This document shows positions 25,947 through 28,678 of a stretch of 64,000 nt of DNA, piece after piece. Under the pieces are notes generated by a model. It did not search any database. It had not been told where the DNA came from and saw nothing but the letters and a program-made list of their open reading frames with translations. The translations under genes and the position numbers were made by a program. This DNA is from Sphingopyxis sp. H050 (GTDB taxonomy: Bacteria; Pseudomonadota; Alphaproteobacteria; Sphingomonadales; Sphingomonadaceae). The stretch spans positions 124,001 through 188,000 of the forward strand of contig NZ_LNRZ01000003.1 of NCBI RefSeq assembly GCF_001468265.1. The letters run 5' to 3'. Every line of letters begins with the position of its first letter. Position 1 is the first letter of the stretch.

Positions 25947-26804
25947 ATGAATATCGCCGCGGCGCAGCGCAGCTTCGAACGGCTCGCGGTCACGCCGCTG
26001 ACGCCCGCGATCGGGGCCGAGATTTCGGGCGTCGATCTGGCGCAGGAACAGGAAGAGGCGGTCATCGCCGAAATCCGCGCCGCGCTGCTCGCGCACAAGG
26101 TGATCTTCTTCCGCGACCAGCATATCACGCCCGCCCAGCATATCGCCTTCGCCCGCCGCTTCGGGACGCTAGAAATCCACCCCGCGACGCCGAAGGATCA
26201 GCCCGATCCTGAGGTGCTGCACATCGCGCACGGCCCGGAATCGAAGGGCAAGGAAAATGCCTGGCATTCGGACGTCACTTGGCGCGCCGAGCCGTCGCTC
26301 GGGTCGATCCTGCGCGCGGTCGAGGTGCCCGCGGTCGGCGGCGACACGCTGTTCGCCGACATGGGCGCGGCGTTTCGCGGGCTCTCGCCGGCGATGCAGG
26401 AGTGGTGCCGCGCCCTGACCGCCGTGCACGACATCGCGCGCGTTTTTGCAGGAAGGCTCGGCAAGCCCGTCGAGGAGCTGCACAAGCAATATCCGCCGCA
26501 GACGCACCCCGTCGTGCGCACGCATCCCGAGACCGGCGAGCAGGCGCTCTACGTCAACACCGCCTTCACCAGCCATATCGAGGGGCTGTCGAAAGCCGAG
26601 AGCGACTGGCTGCTCGCGCATCTCTATGCGCAGGCGGCGATCCCCGAATATCAGTGCCGCTTCCACTGGGCGCCGGGCTCGATCGCCTTTTGGGACAATC
26701 GCGCCGGCCAGCATTATGCCGCGTCGGACTATTTCCCCGCGGTGCGGCGGATGGAGCGGGTGACCATCGCGGGCGACCGGCCCTTCTATCGCGACGAGCG
26801 CTGA
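25947..26804 (+). CDS. TauD/TfdA family 2-oxoglutarate-dependent dioxygenase
   Basis: The 285-residue enzyme belongs to the taurine/alpha-ketoglutarate dioxygenases. The iron ligands are His107 and Asp109 (AWHSDVTW) and the distal histidine in GQHYA near residue 256. The 2-oxoglutarate-binding arginine lies in the final RRMERVTIAG. NTAFTSHIEGLS matches the taurine/alkylsulfate branch. It may release sulfite from an organosulfur compound; the TauE/SafE exporter is 4.3 kb away and not obviously linked. AAGGAGAGGCC precedes the ATG. Confidence 0.88.
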   Translation: MNIAAAQRSFERLAVTPLTPAIGAEISGVDLAQEQEEAVIAEIRAALLAHKVIFFRDQHITPAQHIAFARRFGTLEIHPATPKDQPDPEVLHIAHGPESKGKENAWHSDVTWRAEPSLGSILRAVEVPAVGGDTLFADMGAAFRGLSPAMQEWCRALTAVHDIARVFAGRLGKPVEELHKQYPPQTHPVVRTHPETGEQALYVNTAFTSHIEGLSKAESDWLLAHLYAQAAIPEYQCRFHWAPGSIAFWDNRAGQHYAASDYFPAVRRMERVTIAGDRPFYRDER

Positions 26805-26926: not shown

Positions 26927-26957
26927 TTGATCTCAACCGCGGTTGAGCTTTCATACG
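26927..26957 (+). promoter_or_regulatory. MerR-type (SoxR-like) promoter/operator before the N-acetyltransferase gene
   Basis: TTGATC (26927-26932) and CATACG (26952-26957) are separated by 19 bases. A perfect 16-base palindrome CTCAACCGCGGTTGAG (26932-26947) starts at the end of the -35 box and fills most of the spacer. This lay-out, an over-long spacer holding a CTCAA...TTGAG dyad, is the hallmark of promoters activated by MerR/SoxR-family regulators. No MerR-type gene is in the window, so the regulator would act in trans. Assignment is inference from the motif. Confidence 0.6.
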
Positions 26958-26990
26958 ATGCGGCAGATGATTCGCGAGGAGCCTTTGCCG

Positions 26991-27872
26991 ATGTTGCACG
27001 CCAGCCAGCCGCCCTGTCCCGACGACGATGCGTTCGATGCCGAGCCTGGCCGCGACGCGTTCGTGGCGCGCTATTTGCGCCGGATCGGGCTGGCCGTGGC
27101 TCCGCCACCGACGCGCGAAGGCCTCGCCACCCTTCAGGCGGCGCATATCGCCGCGATCCCGTTCGAGGCGCTCGACGCGCTGACCGGGGTGGGCGTCGAT
27201 CTCGACCCCGATGCGATCGCGGCGAAGCTGATCGACCGGCGGCGCGGGGGCTATTGCTTCGAGCAGAACGCGCTGTTCCTTAGCGTGCTGCGGCAGATCG
27301 GTTTCCAGGCCGAGGGGCTGATCGGGCGGGTGCGCTGGATGCTGCCCGACGATGCCCCGCCGACGCCGCGCACGCATATGACGGTGCGCGTGTGGATCGC
27401 CGGCCGGCCGTGGCTCGCCGACGTCGGCTTCGGGTCGGCGGTGCCGCCGCAGCCGCTGGCGCTCGACCGCCCCGGCGCGGCGCAGCCGACGCGGCATGAG
27501 ACCTATCGCGTGTCGGCGCATGGCGGCGGCTACCGCGTCGAGGCCGAGATCGCGGGCGAATGGCGGGTGCTCTACGATATGGAAGACGCCCCCGCGCCGG
27601 CGATCGATTATGCCGTCGGCAACTGGTACACCTCGCGGCATCCGGATTCGCATTTCACCCGCCAGCTGAGCGTGGCGCGCTCCAGCGCCGAGGCGCGCCA
27701 CGGCCTCCGCGACAACCGGCTGACAATCCGCCGCACCGACGGCCGCATCGAGCAGCGCTACCTCAGCGCCGACGGGATCGAGGCCGCGCTGCGCGACATC
27801 TTCCTGCTGACGCCCGAACCCGGCTGGCGCCGCGCCATCGAGCGCGCAGCCGCGGCGGAGATTGCGGGCTAG
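26991..27872 (+). CDS. Arylamine N-acetyltransferase
   Basis: The 293-residue enzyme transfers acetyl (or propionyl) groups from CoA to arylamines and hydrazines. The catalytic triad is visible: Cys89 in RRGGYCFEQN, His129 in PRTHMTV and Asp144 in ADVGFGS. The ATG at 26991 is preceded by GAGGAG and lies about 30 bases after the MerR-type -10 box; the longer frame starting at 26943 would begin inside that promoter, so it is rejected. Its stop overlaps the convergent ThuA gene. Confidence 0.92.
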   Translation: MLHASQPPCPDDDAFDAEPGRDAFVARYLRRIGLAVAPPPTREGLATLQAAHIAAIPFEALDALTGVGVDLDPDAIAAKLIDRRRGGYCFEQNALFLSVLRQIGFQAEGLIGRVRWMLPDDAPPTPRTHMTVRVWIAGRPWLADVGFGSAVPPQPLALDRPGAAQPTRHETYRVSAHGGGYRVEAEIAGEWRVLYDMEDAPAPAIDYAVGNWYTSRHPDSHFTRQLSVARSSAEARHGLRDNRLTIRRTDGRIEQRYLSADGIEAALRDIFLLTPEPGWRRAIERAAAAEIAG

Positions 27873-28678
27873 TCGCAGCCCTCTCCCGCTTGGCGCGCGG
27901 CCCAGCCGATCGCGCCGTCGACCATCTTGAGGTGCGCCGGATCGCTCCACGCCTCGGCCCGGTGGCCGAGCGCCGAATAGAAGATGCGCGCGCGGCCCTC
28001 GCAGCGCCACCAGATGAGGGCATGGCCCGCGCCCATGCGATACTTCGGTTCGAGCCGCAGCGTCGTTTCGTCGAGGCTGGCCAGGATGTGCGTATCGGCG
28101 GCGGGCGGGGCGTCCCAGCTGTAATATTCGTCGGTCCAGCGCCAGCGAGCGGGGAGGTGCGCGGTTGCGGGATGGCTGCGGTCGGTGACGGTCAGGTCGG
28201 CAGCCTGGAACTGGTCGCCGCCGCCCGGATGGCCGATGAACTTGCCGTTGCCGCGCATCCGCGCGAACCAGGCCGGATGGCTGTCGTCGCCCGCGCTGTG
28301 CAGACCGACGAAGCCGCCGCCCTTCGCGATCCACGCCTGGAAGGCGGCGCGCTGCTCCGGCGTGTAGAGGTCGCCGCTGGCGTTGGCGAAGACGATCACG
28401 TCGAATTTGGCGAGGCTGGCAGGGTTGAGGACCGCGGCATTTTCGGTCGCGTAGCTGCTCCAGCCGCGCGCAGCGGCGAGCGCCTCGATCGCGGGCACCG
28501 CCTGCTCGATGCTGTCGTGGCGATAGCCGTTGGTCTTGCTGACAATCAGCACCGCGGGGCGCGGCATGTCGGGAATCTCGGGCGCGACGCTGTCGAAGGT
28601 CGGCGCGGGCCAGTGCGGGTCGGCGGCGGGCGCGGCCTGCGCAGCGAACAGCAACACGGCGGCAAGGTCTGCGATCAT
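27869..28678 (-). CDS. ThuA domain protein, exported
   Basis: The 269-residue protein has a signal peptide (residues 1-19) and a ThuA/class-I glutamine-amidotransferase-like fold: VLIVSKTNGYRHDSI, DVIVFANASGDLYTPEQ, GGGFVGLHSAGD and an H-rich WRCEGRARIFYSALGH near the end. The family is linked to trehalose or other sugar breakdown, but the true reaction is unknown. It stands alone here, overlapping the N-acetyltransferase stop by four bases. Confidence 0.88.
   Translation of the reverse strand: MIADLAAVLLFAAQAAPAADPHWPAPTFDSVAPEIPDMPRPAVLIVSKTNGYRHDSIEQAVPAIEALAAARGWSSYATENAAVLNPASLAKFDVIVFANASGDLYTPEQRAAFQAWIAKGGGFVGLHSAGDDSHPAWFARMRGNGKFIGHPGGGDQFQAADLTVTDRSHPATAHLPARWRWTDEYYSWDAPPAADTHILASLDETTLRLEPKYRMGAGHALIWWRCEGRARIFYSALGHRAEAWSDPAHLKMVDGAIGWAARQAGEGCD

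Follow-up and report, generated by a model that had tools for sequence, protein, structure and literature searches.

A predicted SoxR-dependent promoter upstream of an arylamine N-acetyltransferase gene in Sphingopyxis, and its recurrence in other Pseudomonadota

The window, a stretch of 64,000 nucleotides from Sphingopyxis sp. H050, contains an arylamine N-acetyltransferase (NAT) gene (26991-27872, plus strand) preceded by a 16-bp palindrome. This palindrome is very probably a SoxR box placed within an overlong (19-bp) sigma-70-type promoter, from which SoxR would drive a single-gene NAT transcript. That a SoxR-type promoter precedes the NAT gene is well supported by comparison between genomes, and the function proposed for it below is deduced from sequence. 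The promoter type is already known; NAT as a recurrent target of SoxR appears to be new.

The -35 element, TTGATC, is found at 26927-26932 and the -10 element, CATACG, at 26952-26957, both on the plus strand, which leaves a spacer of 19 bp (26933-26951). The putative operator CTCAACCGCGGTTGAG (26932-26947, no strand) is a perfect palindrome, and its first C doubles as the final position of the -35 hexamer; read directly from the window, the stretch covering both hexamers and the palindrome is CGCTTGATCTCAACCGCGGTTGAGCTTTCATACGATG. The site thus has the arrangement that defines a SoxR-dependent promoter, a CTCAA-N6-TTGAG box between the -35 and -10 elements and a 19-bp spacer. The earlier note had described the two hexamers, the palindrome and the spacer in this position and had read them as a MerR/SoxR-type operator; all are present, and the sequence supports this reading and narrows it to SoxR. 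CATACG is a weak -10 element, and most orthologues have CATAAG in its place. A transcript start near 26964 would fit ATG 26991, the most likely start of the NAT gene, which has a likely ribosome-binding site, GAGGAG (26976-26981, plus strand), 9 nt before it.

The NAT gene encodes 293 amino acids plus a stop, and the protein contains the PF00797 domain (218 bits) with the Cys-His-Asp triad expected of a family member. The best solved relative is 1gx3, and the alignment with this structure places what we take to be the catalytic triad at Cys89, His129, and Asp144. A TauD-family gene (25947-26804, plus strand) lies upstream on the same strand, while a ThuA-family gene (27869-28678, minus strand) lies downstream and is convergent with NAT, which is therefore probably transcribed alone. 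Also near the site is a gene for a DUF6445 protein (PF20043; 24524-25198, minus strand).

One protein in the genome scores above the SoxR cut-off (TIGR01950, 175.7 bits against a cut-off of 116.9). All four of its cluster cysteines, at positions 116, 119, 121, and 127, have aligned counterparts in E. coli SoxR (2zhg), and by the cut-off and the cysteines together it belongs to the SoxR family. Its gene is found on contig C8, while the window is on contig C3, in agreement with the unlinked regulator that the earlier note had postulated. The divergent promoter of soxR contains CGCTTGATCTaAACCtcacTTGAGCTTTCATA, repeating the NAT promoter. The sequence between soxR and the divergent VOC-fold gene, CGCTTGATCTAAACCTCACTTGAGCTTTCATA, equals CGCTTGATCTCAACCGCGGTTGAGCTTTCATA of the NAT promoter except for one arm base and the centre, and the orientation of the box suits driving of the VOC gene. 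The soxR gene thus has a matching box in its own region, as expected if the promoters depend on SoxR. In 28 of the 30 loci examined, soxR diverges from a VOC-fold (glyoxalase-like) gene (e.g., L010:1808-2200), and the two loci that lack it are second soxR copies.

The palindrome taken alone is weak evidence and not decisive, because a loose search for it (up to three mismatches), which gives a single match within the window, has a shuffle expectation of 0.47. The arms alone are unspecific as well, since CTCAAN6TTGAG with one mismatch matches 18 places in the genome against 16 for the control. TCAACCGCGGTTGA with two mismatches is found at 13 places against six for the control; apart from the NAT site, the inspected places are without promoter flanks, and a composite pattern was therefore used instead. 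This pattern combines the -35 element, the half-sites and CTT.CAT, and allows up to three mismatches. The earlier note had suggested scanning the genome for the site and for a MerR/SoxR gene. The composite has exactly two matches there, one before NAT and one before soxR, and there is the single SoxR protein. The 80 genomes of the genus sample contain 147 matches, far above chance, as the reversed pattern gives none.

NAT orthologues, defined as matches above 100 bits (paralogues being those up to 100 bits), are present in 63 of the 80 genus genomes. The earlier note had named a palindrome missing upstream of orthologues as evidence against the operator; the box was found in all 63 genomes, on the coding strand and 20-100 nt upstream of the start of the matched protein. 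Orthologue rows without a box in G034 and G049 are inner pieces of split genes, the 5' piece of which has the box. None of the nine NAT paralogues in the genus genomes has a box upstream. At soxR genes the box is found in 75 of 76 cases, the soxR of G023 having none under the strict pattern, and in 16 of the 17 genomes without a NAT orthologue there is no box beyond that of soxR itself. Pumps, transporters and monooxygenase-domain genes are the usual gene classes under SoxR. The nine boxes located elsewhere (L311-L319) precede membrane-fusion pump subunits (four), MFS transporters (three), an EamA transporter (one) and an antibiotic-biosynthesis-monooxygenase-domain protein (one), and the pattern therefore acts as a SoxR-box detector. 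Comparison of 30 orthologue sites shows hardly any change in TTGA (kept in all 30), the two arms and CATA but a variable centre, as expected for a protein operator and not for an RNA hairpin. The operator described in the earlier note is thereby upheld, but the perfection of the palindrome is not a conserved feature; only five of the 30 sites are perfect, and it is the outer arms and flanks that are kept.

These results bear on three other readings of the site. That the palindrome is a chance sequence might be suggested by the shuffles, 35 of 100 of which contain at least one match to the palindrome alone at up to three mismatches; with the box before every orthologue in 63 genomes and the reversed pattern absent from all 80, this reading is refuted by conservation and its probability is practically nil. 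The palindrome could also be the hairpin of an intrinsic terminator belonging to the TauD-family gene, as the inverted repeat is followed by CTTT and lies about 130 nt past the stop of that gene. The pairing is not kept, however, the 6/11 pair being found in eight and the 8/9 pair in 10 of the 30 orthologue sites, and perfect palindromes are as rare as stated above, whereas TTGA, both arms and CATA persist. Moreover, the gene divergent from soxR is preceded by the same box, and tblastn finds TauD in only 12 of the 30 orthologue loci, so that it is not a constant neighbour. A terminator is thus extremely improbable. Binding of a different regulator of the MerR family is favoured by the 11 MerR_1 domain matches in the genome and by the geometry that operators of this family have in common. 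Against it, the composite is found only at NAT and soxR in this genome, and 138 of the 147 genus boxes precede one of these two genes, making such a regulator highly unlikely. A SoxR box thus remains the preferred reading of the site.

The box is also found outside the genus. Nineteen of the 80 closest NAT loci in named genomes are of the Sphingopyxis type, and all have the box with at most one arm mismatch; these loci overlap the genus genomes, with several assemblies shared, and are not independent of them. Among the other 61 loci the box is present in 13 and absent from 48. The 13 are from a Halomonas MAG (L060), Sphingomonas deserti (L061), Billgrantia (L062), Sinimarinibacterium (L064), a Rhodospirillaceae MAG (L071), Euryhalocaulis (L075) and seven Thalassospira or Rhodospirillales loci. 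The Thalassospira NAT L076 has no box within 350 nt, and near matches without a TTGA-type -35 element (e.g., L086, L088, and L090) were excluded from the box counts.

A broader sample of 397 Pseudomonadota genomes gave NAT matches in 82. Eighty of the 89 NAT rows were examined (79 plus the window), the nine excluded being the second and third rows of G016, the second pieces of G200 and G356, and the weak rows of G312, G277, G335, G364, and G240. A box with up to two mismatches lies within 650 nt of 16 of the 79 genes, while the reversed-pattern control gives none. For two further genes the box is 1.3-1.6 kb away, where an apparent operon begins, which brings the number of box-bearing NAT genes, among them that of L238, to 18 of 79, or 19 of 80 with the window, across nine families. 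Upstream matches with at most one mismatch point toward NAT in 16 cases and away from it in none, and 30 downstream flanks of 1.5 kb, searched on both strands, contain one match at up to two mismatches. About three quarters of the NAT genes examined are without a box, some of them in genomes that have soxR. All 19 genomes with a boxed NAT encode SoxR, against 33 of 58 others, a comparison that covers the 82 NAT genomes minus the last five named above. This gives p 0.00015 on the assumption of independent genomes, which does not hold; shared ancestry may be the cause. In a tree, from which L067 was excluded for its short translation, the box-bearing NATs are clustered (five changes against 25.7 in shuffles). 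Its deep branches are weak, and no number of origins is therefore claimed.

When it comes to gene order, six loci have a box common to soxR and a NAT gene or operon. The soxR gene is directly opposite NAT, with the box between them, in L064, L075, and L242, and opposite an operon with NAT as its last gene in L061, L071, and L254. An FMN reductase gene (PF03358) lies behind the box and ahead of NAT in L061, L062, L254, and L283. In L254, soxR is followed by the box, VOC, FMN reductase and NAT, in this sequence, and judging by this gene order the locus joins two putative targets, VOC and NAT, that are separate in Sphingopyxis.

The following mechanism may be proposed. SoxR, encoded on another contig, would occupy the box at the NAT promoter. 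Oxidation of its [2Fe-2S] cluster by a redox-active compound would lead to untwisting of the promoter and allow RNA polymerase to transcribe NAT, activation across a 19-bp spacer by oxidised SoxR being assumed by analogy with the SoxR family. The enzyme would then N-acetylate a redox-cycling aromatic amine, for instance of the aminophenol or amino-quinone type, and as the acetylated amine would cycle less, the SoxR signal would be switched off. The identities given here for the SoxR signal and the NAT substrate are guesses. SoxR may instead respond to a self-made redox metabolite or to the state of the respiratory quinones, with an endogenous amine as the NAT substrate. The SoxR proteins of Pseudomonas and Streptomyces respond to self-made phenazines or actinorhodin (PMC8859910; PMC4146615), and in P. 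chlororaphis a NAT of the phenazine route converts 2-aminophenol to 2-acetamidophenol (PMC7236291). An endogenous signal is thus a serious possibility, although we consider it rather unlikely.

Returning to a redox-active compound as the signal, the enzyme families and their neighbours suggest that a compound might first be reduced to an amine or hydroquinone, and that acetylation would then take the amine out of redox cycling. Tentatively, and with a little less than even confidence, we propose that a SoxR module of this "reduce and cap" kind is widespread in Pseudomonadota. In such a module the FMN reductase, often together with the VOC protein, would make amines from quinone-imine, nitro or azo compounds, and NAT would acetylate them so that they are no longer re-oxidised. 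If this is true, the physiological role of many proteobacterial NATs would be protection from arylamine antibiotics that redox-cycle and from aminophenols of plant or pollutant origin.

The promoter resembles that of mfsA in Stenotrophomonas maltophilia, where SoxR has been shown to bind a box that also lies between the -35 and -10 elements with a 19-bp spacer, and that has 14 of 16 core bases in common with the window palindrome (PMC4411124). Also shared with S. maltophilia are a small direct SoxR regulon and a soxR gene divergent from one target, but the target there is an efflux pump adjoining soxR, whereas the acetyltransferase studied here is far from soxR (PMC4411124). Few direct targets are likewise typical of non-enteric SoxR regulons such as that of Streptomyces coelicolor, which consists of six genes (PMC4146615). 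Non-enteric targets include transporters and small-molecule-modifying enzymes, among them a flavoprotein reductase and oxidoreductases; unlike in the present case, the word acetyltransferase has no occurrence in the available text of that source (PMC4146615). The NAT of P. chlororaphis belongs to the same family, PF00797, and acts on the kind of substrate proposed here, but the accessible part of its description makes no link to SoxR (PMC7236291). The available text of a 2024 NAT survey contains neither "MerR" nor "oxidative stress" (PMC11213898). In the literature searched, no title or abstract links SoxR to an arylamine NAT, and the one paper that mentions both concerns E. coli morphology and resistance. 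An older genome-wide soxbox survey, which has small-molecule-modifying enzymes among its predicted targets (cited in PMC4146615), may already list one.

A SoxR-controlled NAT would add an acetyltransferase to the small-molecule-modifying enzymes under non-enteric SoxR, and would link NAT with the FMN reductases of the same operons. To our knowledge, bacterial NATs have been studied as xenobiotic-metabolising enzymes, and the switch that induces them is seldom known. The recurrent box narrows the candidate NAT substrates to a short list and offers a specific and cheap test. The recurrence across families and the link to FMN reductase are the parts of specialist interest.

Some of the SoxR-linked NATs differ in domain composition. 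In the metagenome assembly L071 (2122-3816), a single frame of 565 amino acids behind the box comprises an FMN reductase (6-143) and a NAT domain (318-552), a fusion that is possibly a sequencing slip. The NATs of L061 (2668-3780), L075 (2569-3810) and L242 (915-1300) are extended at the N-terminus by about 100-150 amino acids. The extension gave no Pfam match in the two that were scanned, L061 and L075; by eye, it looks like a receiver domain.
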